A stretch of 42,122 nucleotides of DNA from IMG/VR virus record IMGVR_UViG_3300018481_000036, positions 1 to 42,122 of that record, one strand, 5' to 3'. The DNA is from a virus. A program made the translations under genes and the position numbers. The notes beneath the pieces are model-generated. The model was not told the origin of the DNA. It saw only the letters and a list, made by a program, of their open reading frames with translations, and did not search any database. This document shows, piece after piece, positions 2,954-41,878 of this stretch (its first letter is position 1; every line of letters begins with the position of its first letter).

Positions 2954-3183
2954 AGGTATGTGAGGTATGTGAAGGTATGTTTGAGATGGCATGTAAACAT
3001 ACCTTGGAAAGCCTATGAAATCACTCAATTTTTTCGGAAAAGTATGGAGGTATGCTTAAAATAATAGGTTTGCTTTCTATAGCCGAAAAATGGTATGGGG
3101 GTTTTTACAGCTTCAACGTTTTTTCGCCTATAGACAATGACCCCCCCCGGTATGTCGCATACCTTGCATACCTTGAATACCTG
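2954..3183. repeat. AGGTATG iterons
   Basis: Three direct copies lie at 2954-2979 with 9-10 bp spacing. An inverted copy is at 2998, further copies are at 3048, 3092 and 3149, and three inverted copies are at 3158-3183. They are likely binding sites for a replication initiator, possibly the helicase or primase. Confidence 0.65.
3077..3133. repeat. Inverted repeat with A-run/T-run arms
   Basis: CTATAG-C-CGAAAAA at 3077-3090 pairs with TTTTTCG-C-CTATAG at 3120-3133, with one C-C mismatch and 29 bases between. The A/T-rich inner arms could help unwinding of an origin. Alternatively it terminates the primase-helicase transcript. Confidence 0.5.
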
Positions 3184-3249
3184 AAGCGTCGCCAGGAGCA
3201 ACTAACAGTAACAAACTCGTGATCGAGGAATGAAATTTGAAATTAGCGG

Positions 3250-4220: not shown

Positions 4221-5612
4221 TTGTTAGATGGCGTAGACACTAGTAACGCGATAATGCCGCAACCGGGGCCGCAATCGATGTTTCTAGCATCGCGTGCGGA
4301 TATTGCGATTTATGGTGGTGCGGCTGGCGGTGGTAAATCTTACGCTTTGTTACTAGAACCATGCCGACATATGGAAAATCCAGATTTCGGTGGCGTAATA
4401 TTTAGAAGACAAGCAATTCAAGTAAGAGCCGAAGGCGGTTTATACGATACTAGTTTTGGTATATACGGTCAACTAGATGCTACGCCTATGTCTAGTCCGT
4501 ATCCGAAATGGACTTTTGCTAGTGGCGCTTCAGTAGCGTTTAATCATTTGTCTAGTGATAGCGATCTGCTATCCTGGCAAGGTTCGCAAATCCCGTTTAT
4601 TGGTTACGATGAACTAACGCATTTCACTGAACGCCAATTCTGGTATATGCTATCCCGTAATCGCAGTGTTAGTGCTATCAGACCTTATTTAAGAGCAACA
4701 ACTAATCCGGATGCGGATAGTTGGGTGGCGAAACTAATTGAATGGTGGATCAATCAGGATACTGGTTACGCTATACAAGAACGTAGTGGCATAGTTCGTT
4801 ACTTTGTAAGAATGGATGATACGCTACATTGGGCAGATACCCGCCAGGCGTTGCTTGATAAATACCCGATGTTGCAACCTAAGTCTCTAACATTTATTCC
4901 TAGTAAGCTAACTGACAATAAAATACTCATGGACAACGATCCTGGGTATATGGCTAACTTAATGATAATGGGGCGAGTAGACAGGGAACGCCTACTAAAC
5001 GGTAATTGGAAAGTCAAAGAACAAGCAGGTAGTTACTTCCCTAAAACAAAGGTGAATATACTATCTGCAATTCCAACAGATGTAAAGAATTGGGTGCGTA
5101 AATGGGACTTAGCTGCAACCACTATTAGTGAAGCTAATCCTAGTCCTGACGCTACCGCATCTGTTTTGATGGGTAAACGAGAAAACGGTCGTTTTGTTAT
5201 TGCCGATGGTATTAATTTACGCGAAAATGCCAGTGATATACGTCAAGTAATTCGTAACATACTTTCGCAGGATCACGCCAGGAGTCGATCACTAACTACA
5301 ATAATTCCGCAAGACCCTGGACAAGCTGGCAAAGACCAAGCGTCTAGCCTTATATCATTTCTGTCTGGATATAAAGTAAAAGCGGTCAGAGAAACTGGCC
5401 CTAAAGTTACAAGAGCAGAACCATTATCTGCACAATGGCAAGCTAACAACGTTGATATAGTAGCTGGCGCTTGGAATGATCATTACTTGACGGAAATGGA
5501 AAACTTTCCTGATAGTAGTCACGATGACTATGTTGATGCATCTAGTGGTGCATTTCTTGAACTAGCTAGCAAGGTCAGTGACCATGCTAGACGATTAGCA
5601 CTCGCAGAATAG
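4221..5612 (+). CDS. terL: Terminase large subunit
   Basis: A 463-residue DNA-packaging motor. The ATPase Walker A motif GGAAGGGKSY is at residues 32-41 and the Walker B motif PFIGYDE at 125-131. The C-terminal RNase H-like nuclease shows KWDLAAT followed by PSPDATAS, and a late DDYVDASSGAF segment with the expected acidic residues. The start is TTG at 4221, with GGGGG about 11 nt upstream. An ATG at 4254 would also leave both domains intact but has no obvious ribosome binding site. Confidence 0.92.
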   Translation: MLDGVDTSNAIMPQPGPQSMFLASRADIAIYGGAAGGGKSYALLLEPCRHMENPDFGGVIFRRQAIQVRAEGGLYDTSFGIYGQLDATPMSSPYPKWTFASGASVAFNHLSSDSDLLSWQGSQIPFIGYDELTHFTERQFWYMLSRNRSVSAIRPYLRATTNPDADSWVAKLIEWWINQDTGYAIQERSGIVRYFVRMDDTLHWADTRQALLDKYPMLQPKSLTFIPSKLTDNKILMDNDPGYMANLMIMGRVDRERLLNGNWKVKEQAGSYFPKTKVNILSAIPTDVKNWVRKWDLAATTISEANPSPDATASVLMGKRENGRFVIADGINLRENASDIRQVIRNILSQDHARSRSLTTIIPQDPGQAGKDQASSLISFLSGYKVKAVRETGPKVTRAEPLSAQWQANNVDIVAGAWNDHYLTEMENFPDSSHDDYVDASSGAFLELASKVSDHARRLALAE

Positions 5613-33663: not shown

Positions 33664-33674
33664 ACTAACTCCTT

Positions 33675-33713
33675 AAAAACACTCCTGGCGTGATGGATGC
33701 CCCGCCAGGAGTG
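33675..33713. terminator. Hairpin terminator made from two octamers
   Basis: AACACTCCTGGCG at about 33678-33690 and CGCCAGGAGTGTT at 33703-33715 form a perfect 13-bp stem with a 12-nt loop. A-rich sequence precedes it on the methyltransferase side. On the - strand this makes AAAAAC downstream a T-type run. It isolates the array from the methyltransferase gene. Confidence 0.65.
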
Positions 33714-33738: not shown

Positions 33739-35487
33739 TAGTTCGCTTCGGTTACTGTCACTATCCCGCTGCATGACTCGTTCGTGCAGTTTGGCACTAT
33801 CGTAAGGAATGACTCGTTCTTCAGAGATGTTACTATCGGGGAATTTGACTCGTTCGCCAAACATGATACTATTACAGGCACTGACTCGTTACCAGACCTT
33901 GTTACTATTAACTGCGATGACTCGTTACCTTATTTTGTTACTATCAACTGAAGTGACTCGTTCTCCATAGTTGTTACTTATTTGACATGATAACTCGTTC
34001 TTCGGAGATGTTACTATCTAAGTCGATGACTCGTTCCCCGTGAATGGTACTATCGGGAATGTGACTCGTTCGTCGCGAATGTTACTATCAGTCAATATAA
34101 CTCGTTCCAATGACTTTGGTACTCTCTCAACCTATAACTCGCTCTCATACTTTGTTACTGTCAATGATGATTGGCTCACTACCAATTCATGATACTATCG
34201 GGGATGGTGGTTCGTTCCTCAAACATGTTACTATCGGAAGAGATGACTCGTTCACTCCATTTGTTACTATCACCGCCAATTAACTCATTCTTCTAACGTG
34301 GTACACTCGTGGAAAATGATTCGTTCTTAGAACCATGTTACTATCACGGGTAATAACTCGTTCGGCAGTGCTGGTACTCTTTCGAGATATGACTCGTTCC
34401 AACTGATTGGTACTAATTCAAGCGTCTTGACTCGTTCTAATGCTTTGTTACTATCGCGGACATTAACTCGTTCGAACGCTTTGTTACTATCGTGAGCTTT
34501 AACTCATTCAGAGGAGGTGTTACTATCTGGATTGATGATTCGTTCTCTCGCACTGTTACTGTTATCACGGATGACTCGTTCTCCTGAAATGGCACACTTC
34601 CTTTAAGTAACTCATTCCTTCATTATGGTACACTCACGGTTGCTGATTCGTTCATCGCCAATGTTACTATCTTGATACATTAACTCACTCTCACATACTG
34701 TTACTGTAATCGCCAATGGTTCGTTCGCTTAGGATGTTACTATCCAAACTTCTGACTCGTTCGCTCATTGTGGTACACTTCCTACAGATAACTCGTTCGT
34801 CCATTGTGGTACACTAGCGAGAAATGACTCGTTTACCTATTTTGGTACTATCCTTCAAAATAACTCGTTCGACCTATATGTTACTGTCACGCACTTTAAC
34901 TCGTTCGTGTCTATTGGTACACTCCACAGATATTAACTCGTTCGTCCATTATGGTACGCTCTGGCTAAGTAACTCATTCTCGGGGTATGGCACTATCGGA
35001 GCTTGTAATTCGTTCACTCTCATTGTTACTATCGAAGGCTTGTAACTCGTTCGCATCTCATGTTACTGTTGGTTCTGGTAACTCGTTCTCTTCTAATGTT
35101 ACTATCGTTCCTGTTAACTCGTTTCCTTTCTCTGGTACTATCGATTGTCACTAACTCACTCTCACAGTTTGTTACTATCTCTCTAGATGGTTCGTTCCTT
35201 TTTACTGGCACTCTTACGGCTTCTAACTAACTCGACAATCATGATACTATCAAACAGCGTGGTTCGTTCGTTCTTTATGGTACTCTCCTAGGGCACTAAC
35301 TCGCTACTTTTCCTTGTTACTATCAAGGAAGATGACTCGTTCACGAAAAATGTTACTATCACAAGTTTTGACTCGTTCTCCATACATGGTACTATCGATT
35401 GTAATAACTCGTTCTCATACATTGGTACACTTCTATGACCGTGACTCGTTCGTCTACAGTGGTACACTCGGTTAGCATGACTTTATC
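33739..35487. repeat. TIGR-like array: two alternating 9-mers with about 95 variable spacers, 36-bp period
   Basis: Two conserved 9-mers alternate. Type A is GACTCGTTC with variants AACTCGTTC, GATTCGTTC, GGTTCGTTC, AACTCATTC and AACTCACTC. Type B is GTTACTATC with variants GGTACTATC, GGCACTATC, GATACTATC, GGTACACTC and GTTACTGTC. I count 47 canonical A copies, starting at 33775 and ending at 35443, and 48 B copies from 33757 to 35461. Degenerate A copies lie at both ends (near 33740, and GACTTTATC at 35479). Start-to-start spacing is 18 nt in most steps (81 of 94), with 11 irregular B-to-A steps and 2 irregular A-to-B steps of 17, 19 or 20 nt. The 9-nt gaps all end in T but are otherwise different. 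This matches the 36-nt unit with two 9-nt spacers of TIGR arrays (Tandem Interspaced Guide RNA). Transcribed strand is not decided; the Tas gene upstream is on the - strand. Confidence 0.88.
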
Positions 35488-35556: not shown

Positions 35557-36405
35557 TCATGCCATAGGCCAATTCGGTGGCGCAAGGAAATGCGCGTGAC
35601 CAAGATGGTCAATGACATATGGCTTCGGCGGCGGCTCGTGGTAATGCAATTCATACATCACATGATGCAGATGTGACAAGAACAATTTTACTGCATAACG
35701 TTTTGCTCTTGCATGAATATGTGCTGGTGGTAGTTTGCCAGTCAAGTAATGCTTTTTTGCTTCAGTATCGGCCGCAAAGTTTTTTGTTGCCAGAATATGT
35801 TCCGCTTGCGAAGCAAATTGTAGTGCTTCGTTCTTCATAATCTCTTGTTGCTTACGCGCAAGATATACTTTGCCGTAAACATCGCTTTCCAAATACGATA
35901 CTTTAACAAAACTTTCCCCAATAATCCAGCACAGTCGTTTCAGCGAGCCATTCCATGGCCGCTTTTCTTTCTTATTCCATACAACTGTTGGATCTTGGCC
36001 AGCATAACGCCAAATATGCCCAACAGTTGGCGCTTTTGTTATGTCAATATGAGTAACTAACCCAGCCGAAATGATCGGACCAATACCAGTGATACTCCTG
36101 GCCCATTTGCTTGATGGATTAGTGTTACTGTATACATCTAACGCACGCGCTACTTGTTTCTCTAGTGTAGCGCGCTGATTAGTTAGCCAATCCAACACCA
36201 CATTGGGTTCTTTATTACTCTCTAACGTCCTAGTCTGGTGACTAGCGCGAATGCGATCCCGCTGCATTGCATAGTAACTGTCTACCAGAAATCTTACTTC
36301 CCGGTCAGATAGTGTGCGAGAAGCATTACGCAAATCTTTGGTTAGTCTGTCTATTGAACCAAGGATTTCGTTAATATCGAAGTCATTGTTAGTTGTTTCA
36401 CTCAT
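35557..36405 (-). CDS. Tas-like protein: Nop/IS110 C-terminal-type domain, no nuclease
   Basis: A 282-residue protein. Residues 1-95 are helical with a charged coiled coil. Residues 101-175 show SITGIGPIISAGLV (107-110 is GIGP), IWRYAGQDP at 131-139 and SLKRLCWIIGESF at 154-166. This is the pattern of the Tnp_20/Nop domain shared by IS110 transposases and box C/D Nop proteins. The IS110 RuvC-like DEDD N-terminus is missing, and no HNH or RuvC motif is seen, so it is best compared to TasA. It would bind the processed array RNA. The gene ends 70 nt before the array. The start overlaps the Arc-like gene by 8 nt. Confidence 0.78.
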   Translation of the reverse strand: MSETTNNDFDINEILGSIDRLTKDLRNASRTLSDREVRFLVDSYYAMQRDRIRASHQTRTLESNKEPNVVLDWLTNQRATLEKQVARALDVYSNTNPSSKWARSITGIGPIISAGLVTHIDITKAPTVGHIWRYAGQDPTVVWNKKEKRPWNGSLKRLCWIIGESFVKVSYLESDVYGKVYLARKQQEIMKNEALQFASQAEHILATKNFAADTEAKKHYLTGKLPPAHIHARAKRYAVKLFLSHLHHVMYELHYHEPPPKPYVIDHLGHAHFLAPPNWPMA

Positions 36406-37996: not shown

Positions 37997-38200
37997 TTAG
38001 TTTCCTTCACATACTGCGGTATATACCGCGTCTAGTGGTCCGTCAATTAACTTGTCCAAAGCATCACCAGCCGCTGACATACCTGATATGTCCATATCAG
38101 CAACCAATTTATGCATCATGTCTTCTAGTTGCATAATACGCTCGATTGCCTGCTGGCGTGATATCTTACGCGGTGGCTTTATTCCGTCAATCAATTGCAT
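37997..38200 (-). CDS. Small helical protein, unknown
   Basis: A 67-residue protein (RQQAIERIMQLEDMMHKLV), probably a short coiled coil. Ribosome binding site GGAG followed by TATATACA before ATG, the same leader as three other early genes here. It follows the intergenic element at 38223-38279. Confidence 0.62.
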   Translation of the reverse strand: MQLIDGIKPPRKISRQQAIERIMQLEDMMHKLVADMDISGMSAAGDALDKLIDGPLDAVYTAVCEGN

Positions 38201-38222: not shown

Positions 38223-38279
38223 CAAGCTTGCGCTTGCCAGCGTAACCTAGTTGCCTAGGTTACACTGGTAAAAGCAAGC
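38223..38279 (-). repeat. Intergenic structured element, copy a
   Basis: Read on the - strand it holds GCTTGC, a hairpin CCAG-T-GTAACCTAG with GCAA loop and its complement, then CAAGC-GCAA-GCTTG, a 5-bp stem with a GNRA tetraloop. The hairpin core pairs through GTAACCTAG/CTAGGTTAC. It sits after the stop of the 38281-38496 gene. Confidence 0.7.
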
Positions 38280-38280
38280 C

Positions 38281-38496
38281 TTATTCCTTACCCTTTCCCC
38301 AATCGATTGAATAGTCGCGATAGCTAGGCGGTTGATGTAGCATTTCTTCCATCATCGCTTCACATTCTGCGATTTTCAGACTGTAAAGCGATGCTTCTGC
38401 GCTAGTCGCGTGTGCCATGTTACGCGCTGCTATGTAATGCTCTTTCGCATCATAGAGAATTTCCAGCCGCAGTGTATCTTGTGTCACTTTTGCCAT
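38281..38496 (-). CDS. Small helical protein, unknown
   Basis: A 71-residue helical protein (HYIAARNMAHATSAEASLYSLKIAECEAMMEEML). Overlaps the end of the short membrane protein gene upstream. No family recognised. Confidence 0.6.
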   Translation of the reverse strand: MAKVTQDTLRLEILYDAKEHYIAARNMAHATSAEASLYSLKIAECEAMMEEMLHQPPSYRDYSIDWGKGKE

Positions 38497-38588
38497 TTGT
38501 ATATACCCTTAGAGAAAGCGTAGAGTAGCTTACCTATGATACCGAAAAGTAAGACCACTAGAGACAACGTTATTAGAGTTTCCATCAT
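38484..38588 (-). CDS. Short membrane protein
   Basis: A 34-residue frame: MMETLITLSLVVLLFGIIGK is an N-terminal membrane segment, then LLYAFSKGIYKWQK. AAGGAAA lies 7 nt before the ATG. It overlaps the next gene by 13 nt. Too short for routine callers. It might affect host envelope or lysis. Confidence 0.6.
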   Translation of the reverse strand: MMETLITLSLVVLLFGIIGKLLYAFSKGIYKWQK

Positions 38589-38612
38589 ATCAGTTTCCTT
38601 TGTTTAGTCTGC

Positions 38613-38676
38613 CAAGCTTGCGCTTGCCTATAGCTACTCCTGGCGTGGGCCAGGAGCGCCATAGGTAAATTCAAGC
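38613..38676 (-). repeat. Intergenic structured element, copy b
   Basis: Same tetraloop hairpin CAAGCTTGCGCTTG on the + strand (38613-38626). Its variable hairpin is CCTAT...CTCCTGGC/GCCAGGAG...ATAGG (38627-38665), built from the octamer. Located after the stop of the 38671-38835 gene. Confidence 0.68.
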
Positions 38677-38835
38677 CTTGTAAGTTAGGATCACTTTGTC
38701 AGCGTCGCGTAAAACATTCTGCAAATGTTTTAGCGAGTCCAAATGATCAGCATTTGCATTGTTCCGAATATACTCGGACAAACCATTCTCTAGAACAAGT
38801 TTCTGCCAGCCGATCAATTCAATTTGCCATGCCAT
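38671..38835 (-). CDS. Short helical protein, unknown
   Basis: A 54-residue frame. It begins MAWQIELIGWQKLVLENG and has a helical end (HLDSLKHLQNVLRDADKVIL). AAGG lies upstream and it begins 2 nt from the stop of the upstream gene. Below routine size limits. Confidence 0.6.
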   Translation of the reverse strand: MAWQIELIGWQKLVLENGLSEYIRNNANADHLDSLKHLQNVLRDADKVILTYKA

Positions 38836-38836
38836 G

Positions 38837-39043
38837 TTACTTGACCTTTACCAGCTTACCATCGGCCATAGTGCCTACCGCATACCAGCGATGGGGCTTG
38901 GGGTAGTGCGGTCCCTCTAGGGCAATGGTGCCATTGGTGGGCACAGTGCCTAAGCCGGGTTGAAAAACTTCAACCGTTCGGCCTAGGGCCAATGCGTCGC
39001 GTAAGGCTTTCTTACTAGTGAAATTGGGGCTTACATACGCCAT
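38837..39043 (-). CDS. Small protein, unknown
   Basis: A 68-residue protein (ATG 39043: MAYVSPNFTSKKALRDALAL) after AGGAAACTGACC. A longer upstream frame from 39229 would read through the large hairpin at 39095-39193 and is rejected. Beta and Gly/Pro-rich second half ends MADGKLVKVK. Confidence 0.6.
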   Translation of the reverse strand: MAYVSPNFTSKKALRDALALGRTVEVFQPGLGTVPTNGTIALEGPHYPKPHRWYAVGTMADGKLVKVK

Positions 39044-39094
39044 TAGGTCAGTTTCCTTGTTTAGTGTGAGATACTGGTAACCTAGGCCAACGAT

Positions 39095-39193
39095 AGGCCG
39101 GCTAGGATGGCCCCACACGGCGGCTGGACCATAGGGAGCTACCCCTATGGCCCAAACCATGTCAAAGCCGTGTAGCGCCATCCTAGCCGGCCT
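39095..39193 (-). ncRNA. Large nested hairpin element, 99 nt
   Basis: Outer arms AGGCCGGCTAGGATGGC (39095-39111) and its complement (39177-39193) give 17 perfect base pairs. Inner arms ACACGGC/GCCGTGT (39115-39121, 39167-39173) and CCATAGGG/CCCTATGG (39129-39136, 39143-39150) nest inside. No reading frame with a convincing ribosome binding site. Likely a structured non-coding RNA or processing element in the early operon. Confidence 0.65.
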
Positions 39194-39209
39194 AGCGTGG
39201 GGATGGCCC

Positions 39210-39452
39210 TTAGTGGGTCGTGCCACCATGGCCCTTGCGCGCCTCTAGAGCATCCAAGGCGGCTAGCAGCGCACGCGCCGCTACCTGGACAGCGTGCAAC
39301 TCTAGGATGGCGTCCACGGCTAGCATGGCGTCATCTAGCGTGGGCACGGTGGCCACCGGCTTGGTGTCCTCCGACCCAACGTGAATCAGCACAAGCTTAG
39401 GGAACGCTACCAGCGTGTGCCCACGGTAAGCATAAATTTCCATATCGAGCAT
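39210..39452 (-). CDS. Small protein, unknown
   Basis: An 80-residue protein with a beta N-terminus (DMEIYAYRGHTLVAFP, LVLIHVG) and an Ala/Leu-rich helical C-terminus (ALLAALDALEARKG). AAGG precedes the ATG at 39452. Much higher GC than the structural genes. Not recognised. Confidence 0.58.
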   Translation of the reverse strand: MLDMEIYAYRGHTLVAFPKLVLIHVGSEDTKPVATVPTLDDAMLAVDAILELHAVQVAARALLAALDALEARKGHGGTTH

Positions 39453-39513
39453 ATCATAACCTTTTCAGAATAAATAGCCGGGTAGGCTATCCGGTGCAAC
39501 ATGCACTGGTCAC

Positions 39514-39565
39514 AGCATCCCTAGCATCCTAGTTTCCTAGGATGCTAGGATGCTATGATCATAGC
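39514..39565 (-). terminator. Long hairpin plus palindrome between early genes
   Basis: AGCATCC-c-TAGCATCCTAG and CTAGGATGCTAGGATGCT pair (39514-39555, loop TTTC). GCTATGATCATAGC at 39552-39565 is a perfect 14-bp palindrome overlapping it. It lies downstream of the 39571-40173 gene on the - strand. Confidence 0.55.
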
Positions 39566-39570
39566 AGGTT

Positions 39571-40173
39571 TTAGTTCCCCCAAGGCAATGAAAATTTGTC
39601 GGCACAAATCGGGCCATAGCCTACCGATACCGATCTGCTATCCGTTAGCTCGCGAGCGCAGAAGCAACAGCTACCCGTAGCCTTGCCATAAGCCGCTGCT
39701 ACCCTGGCAGGATTAGCCGCGAAATTTACCAACAAGGCAGTGATAGCGGTGGCGGTAGCGGTATCCAGCTTGGCGCTGATATCCCACTGGCCAGCGGTAT
39801 CAACCCGCCCGTACCAGATGGCACTGCCGAAAGGCTTACCATCTGTTACGTTAACAGTGCCCGGTAGCCTAGCATTGGGGCCGGCTACTGCTAAGGCTAT
39901 CGGTCTGCCATCGGCAAGCTGTAGCCTGACCTTGGGATGCTTTAGCCGTTCACTTGCACCCTTAAACAAGGCTATCACGCCAGAAAAATCGCCTAGGCTC
40001 ACGCTAGCCGCCTTGGGCTTGCTAGCGTCTGCCACTAGCTTGCGCACCCAAAACATTTGCTTTTCTGACAAGCCGCGATCTTTCGCGTGCTCTAGTAGCG
40101 ACCGGGCAAACTCTTGCGACCGCGCGGGTAGTGTCGGCATGGCGTCTGCCAGTGCCTTAATGTCTTTGTCCAT
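39571..40173 (-). CDS. DUF6011-like zinc-binding protein
   Basis: A 200-residue early protein. The C-terminus GSCCFCARELTDSRSVSVGYGPICADKF has four Cys in the DUF6011 zinc-ribbon pattern. The middle has beta strands with the KVRLQLADGRPIALAV stretch. AAGGAAA precedes ATG 40173. Many phages carry such proteins near replication or transcription genes, role unknown. Confidence 0.7.
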   Translation of the reverse strand: MDKDIKALADAMPTLPARSQEFARSLLEHAKDRGLSEKQMFWVRKLVADASKPKAASVSLGDFSGVIALFKGASERLKHPKVRLQLADGRPIALAVAGPNARLPGTVNVTDGKPFGSAIWYGRVDTAGQWDISAKLDTATATAITALLVNFAANPARVAAAYGKATGSCCFCARELTDSRSVSVGYGPICADKFSLPWGN

Positions 40174-40174
40174 T

Positions 40175-40345
40175 TTAGCTTTCCTTTGTATCTTTTAGGT
40201 TTAGTTGCATTGCGGCATAGCTTGCTTCATCTTTGTTTAGCAAACGGGCGATAACAATTTTACCCGTTTGCCTATCCGTCACACTCCAAGTGTGCGATCT
40301 AGTTTGATCGCATACCGCAATGTAACGCATTGCCTTGCGTGCCAT
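40175..40345 (-). CDS. Small protein, unknown
   Basis: A 56-residue protein, start ATG 40345 with AAGGATAAA upstream. A start at 40378 would include the leader and is rejected. Beta-rich (IAVCDQTRSHTWSVTDRQTG). It ends just before the DUF6011-like gene. Confidence 0.6.
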   Translation of the reverse strand: MARKAMRYIAVCDQTRSHTWSVTDRQTGKIVIARLLNKDEASYAAMQLNLKDTKES

Positions 40346-40375
40346 TAGATTTATCCTTGTATATATTGACGTATC

Positions 40376-40435
40376 CAAGCTTGCGCTTGTGCTAATCGCC
40401 TAGGCGTTGCCTAGGCGGCTAGCAGAAAAGCAAGC
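40376..40435 (-). repeat. Intergenic structured element, copy c
   Basis: Same tetraloop hairpin at 40376-40389. Its variable hairpin is CGCCTAGGC/GCCTAGGCG with GCTA/TAGC. GCAAGC at 40430-40435 abuts the stop codon of the 40435-40698 gene. Confidence 0.72.
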
Positions 40436-40698
40436 TAGTCGTTATCAAACAAGCTAGCCGATACGCTGGCATAAACGCAAAGCTTGCCAGCGTAATCCGT
40501 ATAAGCTGACAGAACATAGCCGCGTGTGGACATGTAGCCGTTGGTGCCTTCGTCGCGCGCATCTTGCATAAGCTTGCGCGCATCGCATTCCATTAGGAAT
40601 AGCAAGCTGTCCAGCTTGTATCCTTTCATGTATTTGTTATGCTTTAGCACTGCTTTCGCAGTCTGGTTAAAGGTTCGCATATCATGATCATTTAGCAT
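40435..40698 (-). CDS. Early protein, unknown
   Basis: An 87-residue protein (MLNDHDMRTFNQTAKAVLKH start, YAGKLCVYASVSASLF end). It has a helical first half with mixed charges and a beta second half. Starts 5 nt from the upstream stop. It is not recognised as a known family. Confidence 0.62.
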   Translation of the reverse strand: MLNDHDMRTFNQTAKAVLKHNKYMKGYKLDSLLFLMECDARKLMQDARDEGTNGYMSTRGYVLSAYTDYAGKLCVYASVSASLFDND

Positions 40699-40702
40699 TG
40701 GT

Positions 40703-40888
40703 TTAGCCTTTCAGTTCGCAAGCTTTGATAAAGCGCACGCTGTCAAAACGCGGATTAGTGCCGCGCAATGCATCGGCTAGTTTCCACACGCAACGGTCCC
40801 ATTGCACCCACGCCGGGTTACTAGCATCCTCATTAGGTTGCGAGGCGCGCATGGTAGCTGCGATCAATTCGTAATCTTTACGTGACAT
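40703..40888 (-). CDS. Small early protein, unknown
   Basis: A 61-residue protein (KDYELIAATMRASQPNED, WDRCVWKLADALRG). CAAAGGAATATATA leads into the ATG. The Trp-rich WVQWDRCVWKL segment looks like small phage early proteins seen next to replication genes. Confidence 0.62.
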   Translation of the reverse strand: MSRKDYELIAATMRASQPNEDASNPAWVQWDRCVWKLADALRGTNPRFDSVRFIKACELKG

Positions 40889-40923
40889 TATATATTCCTT
40901 TGTATGTATTAGGTGATAGGCTT

Positions 40924-40978
40924 CAAGCTTGCGCTTGTGGCCGCATCTAGCAAGCTAGATGCTACCAGAAATGCAAGC
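40924..40978 (-). repeat. Intergenic structured element, copy d
   Basis: Tetraloop hairpin at 40924-40937. Variable hairpin GCATCTAG/CTAGATGC with a CAAG loop (40943-40962). GCAAGC (40973-40978) overlaps the stop codon of the 40978-41208 gene. Confidence 0.72.
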
Positions 40979-41208
40979 TATTGCGTGATAGCAGACACTT
41001 GCAGCAAGGCGGCTAGATCGTCCCTAGCCTGCTTTAGCTGACCGCGCTTGTACTGCTTGCCGGTATAGTATCCGGCCGTACGTAGCATGTTGGTCGGCGT
41101 GTAGGCTCGATTAGCCTTCATTCCGGTTTTGAGATAAAGATCAATTGCGTTTTTGATCACTATCACCACGTAGGTTGACACTTGCGCGCCGGTAAAAGTC
41201 TGTGACAT
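40978..41208 (-). CDS. Small early protein, unknown
   Basis: A 76-residue protein, start ATG 41208 after GGAGTATACACA. A longer upstream frame from 41280 lacks a ribosome binding site. Helical N-terminus (SQTFTGAQVSTYVVIVIKN) and a basic middle (YTGKQYKRGQLKQARDD). Not recognised. Confidence 0.62.
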   Translation of the reverse strand: MSQTFTGAQVSTYVVIVIKNAIDLYLKTGMKANRAYTPTNMLRTAGYYTGKQYKRGQLKQARDDLAALLQVSAITQ

Positions 41209-41221
41209 TGTGTATACTCCA

Positions 41222-41449
41222 TTAGCCCATAAACAAGCAGTCAGCGGCCAGCGTGCCAAAGATGCCGGCATACATCTCACATTGGTTCGGCGTCATATGC
41301 TCGGGTAGGCTATCCGCCAGTAGCTTCGCCTCTTGTTTGGTGATCTTTACCCACGCTTCTGATACGCCGAAACGCGGTCTAATGTAGATCGTGCTGGCCA
41401 CTTTAATCGCCAGCTTTAGGCTCGGTATCGTTGTGATTTCGTGTGACAT
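41222..41449 (-). CDS. First gene of the - strand early block, unknown
   Basis: A 75-residue protein, mostly helical (KLAIKVASTIYIRPRF, KLLADSLPEHMTPNQ). GGAGTATATACA precedes ATG 41449. The - strand genes should be transcribed from a promoter in 41450-42122. No family recognised. Confidence 0.62.
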   Translation of the reverse strand: MSHEITTIPSLKLAIKVASTIYIRPRFGVSEAWVKITKQEAKLLADSLPEHMTPNQCEMYAGIFGTLAADCLFMG

Positions 41450-41878
41450 TGTATATACTCCATTAGTTTCTAGCGTATGCTAGCCTTGTCAGCTTAGTTG
41501 GTCGGGGGAAATTGCCTTTTGTTCCATCTAAGATGCAACCGCCGTCGCTTTGTGCCTTGCGGCACCACTAGGCTACTAGGCTTTCGTCCCTCTGGCCAAC
41601 TAGGCTGACTAGGTTATCATAAGCTTTTAGATCGTTCCGCTCCCCACTTATTGGGAGCGGCGTACCGATCGGTACTCTCCGGCTGGGCCGGGTAGCGTGC
41701 GCGTTGTATGCGTCGCCTGGAATATGATCCCACTAGATTAGGTGCGGCTAGGTTTGGACGCTAGCAGCGTGATCTAGTGACAGGGTATCTCCTGCCAGTG
41801 CCTACCCCCAAGGTAGGCTTGCGCTTTGTTTGATCCCGGCTAGCGTGGCCGGCCTTTTCTTCTGCTTTCGTGATCTAA

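Follow-up and report, generated by a model that had tools for sequence, protein, structure and literature searches.

A repeated intergenic RNA element with two alternative folds in the early region of a phage lineage

What is the short hairpin-forming element that recurs between the minus-strand early genes of this phage genome, and does it act as RNA? We addressed this question in the window, i.e. the whole analysed stretch of 42,122 nt (IMG/VR record IMGVR_UViG_3300018481_000036), and in related phage contigs; coordinates refer to the window unless another contig is named.

Occurrence in the window and in related phages

The motif CAAGCGCAAGCTTG has exactly four exact matches in the window, all on the minus strand (38223-38236, 38613-38626, 40376-40389 and 40924-40937), in agreement with the four copies claimed by an earlier sequence-only reading; with up to 3 mismatches allowed there are 9 matches, against 3.85 expected, and the exact ones are still these four. 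Each of these matches closes, on the 3' side, an element of 56-65 nt that reads, along the minus strand, as a stop codon, a 5' strand A/G-GCUUG(C/A), a U-rich pentamer (UUUUA, UUUUC, AUUUC or AUUUA), a variable hairpin P2, and a small hairpin P3, which in these four copies is CAAGC-GCAA-GCUUG and abuts P2 with no gap. The same reading had placed the copies after a stop codon and before the next ribosome-binding site, and this is where all four lie: the upstream stop is at most 2 nt from the start of the element or inside it, and 22-35 nt of A-rich leader separate the element from the next ATG. Its further statement that the middle hairpin differs in sequence from copy to copy yet always pairs is borne out by P2. 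Folding energies of the four copies are better than those of 200 out of 200 dinucleotide shuffles (z between -4.4 and -6.9). The palindrome CTAG, which is frequent in the window (244 sites in 42 kb), occurs in most of the variable hairpins.

Beginning with the copy at the lowest coordinates, E1 (38223-38280, minus strand, 58 nt) comprises a 5' strand at 38280-38274, the U-rich pentamer at 38273-38269, P2 with a GCAA loop at 38268-38237, and P3 at 38236-38223; a TAA stop (38283-38281) lies just upstream and the next gene starts at 38200. E2 (38613-38677, minus strand, 65 nt) has a P2 (38665-38627) built on CTCCTGGC..GCCAGGAG, followed by P3 at 38626-38613, and the upstream TGA stop (38673-38671) falls within its 5' strand. 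In E3 (40376-40436, minus strand, 61 nt; P2 40424-40390, P3 40389-40376) the upstream TAG stop at 40437-40435 shares bases with the start of the element, and the next open reading frame starts at 40345. E4 (40924-40979, minus strand, 56 nt) carries a CUUG loop on P2 (40967-40938), with P3 at 40937-40924 and an upstream TAG stop at 40980-40978. Two more members were found beyond the four already recognized. E5 (41470-41625, minus strand) is a diverged copy with a large branched P2, located in the leader ahead of the first early gene (start at 41449); it has AGCUUAUGAUAACC at its 5' side and a P3 of sequence CTAGC-ATAC-GCTAG at 41483-41470. E6 (39494-39572, minus strand) is a degenerate copy after a DUF6011-like gene, with a long GAAA-looped P2 and an altered P3.

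A search of IMG/VR with the pattern GCTTGN{28,58}CAAGCGCAAGCTTG returned 35 stretches, among which the hairpin is present only in L129 (contig 3300044492_000058) and L145/L172 (contig 3300025930_000054); these carry 8 copies and 1 copy of the element, respectively. Because the hairpin is missing from the remaining stretches, their matches were taken as chance, and matches to the 14-mer alone or to GCTTG-N-14-mer, mostly chance and likewise lacking the hairpin, were discarded. The two contigs are of the same phage lineage as the window, with 62-88% identity in the early proteins compared and about 70-79% identity in DNA. Five of the L129 copies are of the CAAGC type, and three are diverged (CCAGC-GCAC-GCTGG, CCAGC-ACAA-GCTGG and CCAGC-ATAC-GCTGG). 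The L129 copy at 1037-1112 is the orthologue of E5, and the junction occupied by degenerate E6 is the one that carries a good copy, 3140-3202, in L129.

A covariance model built on 13 copies was tested against the window and other loci. This kind of search had been proposed by the sequence-only reading, and the model does find copies in other phage contigs; it recovers the diverged copies as well as degenerate E6 (18.2 bits, E about 0.03). Among the remaining loci tested, some of them distant relatives with single genes in common, it gave no convincing match, and the element was not found in distant relatives carrying the DUF6011-like or the transposase-like gene. Relaxed patterns (TTTACC..GGCCAGC/GGCAAGC) added no member beyond L129 and L145, and the strict pattern had 0 matches in a collection of 84,980 prokaryotic genomes. 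In Rfam 15 no family matched at its gathering score, and permissive thresholds gave chance-level matches only. The element is thus an intergenic RNA family undescribed in Rfam and, so far as searched, lineage-specific, with three phage contigs known to carry it.

Two competing folds

The ends of all copies (14, from three contigs) were aligned (alignments A2 and A3), revealing two ways in which the element can pair. In fold A the whole element forms one long hairpin whose base joins the 5' AGCUUGC to GCAAGCU, the latter made up of the P3 loop and the P3 3' strand; proceeding inward, the outer stem is followed by a U.C mismatch, UUU paired with AAG, an A.C or C.C mismatch, and then P2. The base of this hairpin, 7 bp long, begins at the stop codon or next to it; a semi-paired internal region and a variable helix of 13-23 bp follow. 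In fold B, P2 stands side by side with the abutting 5-bp hairpin P3 (CNAGC-NNNN-GCUNG). Because both folds use the same 3' bases they are mutually exclusive. The two 'constant parts' named by the sequence-only reading are indeed present in its four copies, but the 5' GCTTGC is not free-standing: it pairs with the P3 loop and 3' strand, and the two parts are therefore not independent. A pseudoknot, in which the P3 loop would bind the 5' strand while P3 itself stays formed, was considered and rejected; with a fully paired 4-nt loop, no linker and a 5-bp stem it looks sterically impossible, and the two pairings must therefore be alternatives.

Both folds are well maintained across the 14 copies. 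For fold A, 94-96% of alignment cells are paired and 7 pairs have changed on both sides, with a covariation score reached by 0 of 500 shuffles; the outer stem alone contains 3 double-changed pairs, and its score is likewise reached by 0 of 500 shuffles. Where the P3 loop reads AUA(C) or ACA(A) instead of GCA(A), the 5' strand has UAU or UGU in place of UGC (A2 pairs 9-72 and 10-71), and A2 pair 14-67 appears as UA, GC and AU. For fold B, 98-99% of cells are paired, P3 is paired in all copies, and its second pair varies among AU, CG and UA. Two interior positions lack pairing in 12/14 and 14/14 copies even though the neighbours on both sides pair, and we read these persistent mismatches as selected because palindrome repair by template switching is expected to erase mismatches. 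Of the 13 copies compared, 12 favour fold A by 2-7 kcal/mol (the exception is L129-4655), and in E5 its advantage is only 0.7 kcal/mol.

The GNRA loop, presented by the sequence-only reading as a constant, is present in the four copies it had seen but is no constant of the family; diverged copies have ATAC, GCAC or ACAA, and over the family the P3 loops (GCAA, GCAC, ACAA, AUAC) track the 5' strand. The conserved property of the P3 loop is complementarity to the 5' strand and not GNRA identity. Docking of a GNRA tetraloop was dropped as a candidate on account of these non-GNRA loops in diverged copies. About half of the distinct copies carry a GNRA or CUUG tetraloop at the tip of P2, often GCAA, GAAA or CUUG, as expected for RNA hairpins.

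An RNA-level structure is well supported by these observations. The sequence-only reading had argued for RNA function from the variable hairpin; the compensatory changes now extend over the variable stem, the small hairpin and the previously unseen outer stem, and fixed orientation, fixed position, the many stable tetraloops and the recovery of copies from other phage contigs by the covariance model point the same way. That both folds are kept by selection has good but not overwhelming evidence, and the compensatory changes must be counted as few independent events because only three contigs, related to one another, supplied the copies.

Stop codons and gene turnover

The 14 copies all share the strand that codes for the early genes. 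Most of them (E3, E4, five copies in L129, and the copy in L172) provide, in their first bases, the TAG or TAA that ends the preceding gene. In L129-3140 the element's stop is the second of two in-frame stops, and the upstream stop lies outside the element in E1 (1 nt upstream) and in L129-4611 (about 10 nt). E5 and L129-1037 are leader copies, ahead of the first early gene. Junctions without an element are mostly gene overlaps or gaps of a few bases.

Comparison between the relatives reveals that copies are gained and lost along with neighbouring genes. L172 follows L129 at 96% identity up to and including the element and its ribosome-binding site and then continues into an extra 74-aa gene that L129 does not have, and two [element + gene] units of L129 (about 1369-1677 and 4607-4888) are missing from the window or L172. 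At a different junction, L129 has a copy that shares 98% identity with E4, far more than the 70-79% of the surrounding genes, which means that copies move or convert. These differences, two units and one post-element gene, partly sustain the suggestion of the sequence-only reading that the element may be a moron insertion site. This conclusion must be tempered by the fact that 11/14 genes of the region adjoin an element anyway, so that adjacency of gene insertions and deletions to elements is not significant by itself.

Candidate roles at cistron borders

The reading we favour, tentatively, is that the element is an RNase III-type processing signal and/or a protector of mRNA ends between early cistrons; the processing site or stability element suggested by the sequence-only reading is accordingly plausible. 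It is preferred because the plan and position of the element match those of the T7 early RNase III sites (R0.3, R0.5, R1, R1.1, R1.3), which we folded for comparison. The finding of no terminator-like and no minus-strand promoter-like site at the elements (sigma-70 consensus only) also speaks for it. Like the element, the T7 sites lie between genes of an early operon, ahead of the gene that follows, and consist of a lower stem, an internal loop and an upper stem, with varying sequence, retained pairing and, in some, GCAA tips; the element has this same irregular hairpin between early cistrons. The T7 sites differ in being without an abutting 5-bp hairpin, a mutually exclusive fold or a built-in stop codon, and no sequence relation was seen; the likeness would be functional, not one of homology, and cleavage of the element is putative. 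As for the protector role, any stable hairpin at the same place would fit equally well.

Under the processing or protection reading, the element would be a cis-acting RNA that folds into a long irregular hairpin in the transcript at early cistron borders, where the early polycistronic RNA would be cut between genes or its ends shielded. Each cistron would thereby get its own decay and translation, and genes could be added or lost without disturbing their neighbours. Because the element carries its own stop codon, a ribosome terminating there would cover the 5' strand and might force fold B (P2 plus P3), in which case processing could depend on translation of the upstream gene. The fuller model, a two-state RNA that moves with gene cassettes, provides the stop codon of the preceding gene and lets the terminating ribosome pick the fold, so tying border processing or stability to upstream translation, we regard as unlikely. 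If right, the element would be an intergenic RNA family not described before, with a strikingly clear double fold and up to eight repeats in one operon. As a natural set of variants it could serve to test how RNA folding, RNase III processing and the termination of translation influence one another, and how phage operons take up small early genes while leaving neighbours undisturbed.

The next reading to consider, which we hold to be rather doubtful, is a passive stabiliser of 3' ends, in which the hairpin does no more than stop 3'-5' exonucleases and the conserved sequence is a sign of recent copying. REP/BIME elements of enterobacteria are repeated hairpins after stop codons, and very stable hairpins directly 3' of stop codons, as well as the 98% identity of one copy at non-orthologous junctions, are consistent with such a role. 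The element differs from REP/BIME in sequence, in having one orientation only, and in its built-in stop codon and conserved alternative fold, and passive stabilisation would leave the conserved double fold, the fixed mismatches and the covarying 5' strand unexplained.

A translation-termination-gated switch, with fold B formed when a ribosome is at the stop, fold A when the RNA is untranslated, and opposite downstream effects of the two, appears unlikely. Both folds are kept and exclude each other, and in most copies the stop is the first codon of the element, all as such a switch would have it; however, neither the next ribosome-binding site nor a terminator is part of either fold, and no downstream output is visible. 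The 3' flanks of the element read GGCACUAC and similar, distinct from the GC-rich hairpin and U run of an intrinsic terminator, and no terminator-like and no minus-strand promoter-like site was found at any element (the promoter test covering the sigma-70 consensus only).

It is improbable, in our estimate, that the element is chiefly a recombination linker or gene-cassette boundary, a short intergenic repeat where gene modules are exchanged. The model for this is the promoter early stem-loops (PeSLs) of T4-like phages, which are described, as cited in PMC4503421 and PMC3950731, as repeated stem-loop cassettes between small early genes, linked to gene shuffling. PeSLs are defined as composite promoter-terminator motifs. 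The element resembles PeSLs in being a stem-loop repeated between small early genes; it differs in that neither a minus-strand promoter-like site (sigma-70 consensus only) nor a terminator-like site was found at the motif. The extra gene after the L172 element and the missing L129 units agree with module exchange, but gene insertions and deletions beside elements are not significantly enriched, covariation and strand bias would be left unexplained, and exchange may follow from the element without being its function.

That the element works in antitermination, like HK022 put or lambda nut, and holds RNA polymerase in a processive state along the early operon, is very unlikely. HK022 put RNA is about 70 nt long with two stem-loops in phage early transcripts, and has bulged stems, a triplex and two copies per genome downstream of early promoters (PMC9378689). 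Fold B, at about 60 nt with two abutting stem-loops, resembles this plan, whereas fold A is one hairpin; one copy lies in the early leader, and in some a boxA-like GCUYUUA follows the stop codon. The succession of conserved boxA and then boxB seen in a lambda-type nut site is absent, given that this string is missing from E2, E5 and L129-1099, and the boxA/nut reading was dropped on this lack of conservation in diverged copies. Moreover, the element stands at 4-8 junctions and not once per operon, and no terminators were found between the genes.

Least credible of all is the notion of DNA-level palindromes matched by template switching at quasi-palindromes, with no RNA function, for although perfect arms with changing sequence are the product of such repair and the genome is rich in CTAG palindromes, conserved mismatches survive between the perfect arms, and the element has one orientation only and a constant position relative to stop codon and ribosome-binding site.

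Other repeats and structures occur in the window. A very long imperfect inverted repeat (39040-39212, minus strand; arms 39087-39121 and 39167-39201) lies between two early genes and is predicted to fold, with its neighbours, at -104 kcal/mol; the matching gap in L129 is strongly structured too, but different. The sequence GCGCCAGGAGCA has five occurrences on the plus strand. At 33740-35460 (minus strand), immediately downstream of a transposase-like gene (phrog_4285, 35557-36405), is a dense array of about 40 units with mostly 36-37 nt spacing, in which GAACGAGTYA and GATAGTAACA motifs have 7-9 nt of changing sequence between them. The arrangement recurs behind homologous genes in L171 and L173-L177 and is also present in a Propionivibrio genome contig (L305), and it looks like an undescribed repeat array tied to the transposase-like gene. 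After the array, at 33670-33712 (minus strand), comes an intrinsic-terminator-like hairpin, ACTCCTGGCGG..ACGCCAGGAGTGTTTTT, whose CTCCTGGC/GCCAGGAG arms recur in P2 of E2, L129-1900 and L129-3869.
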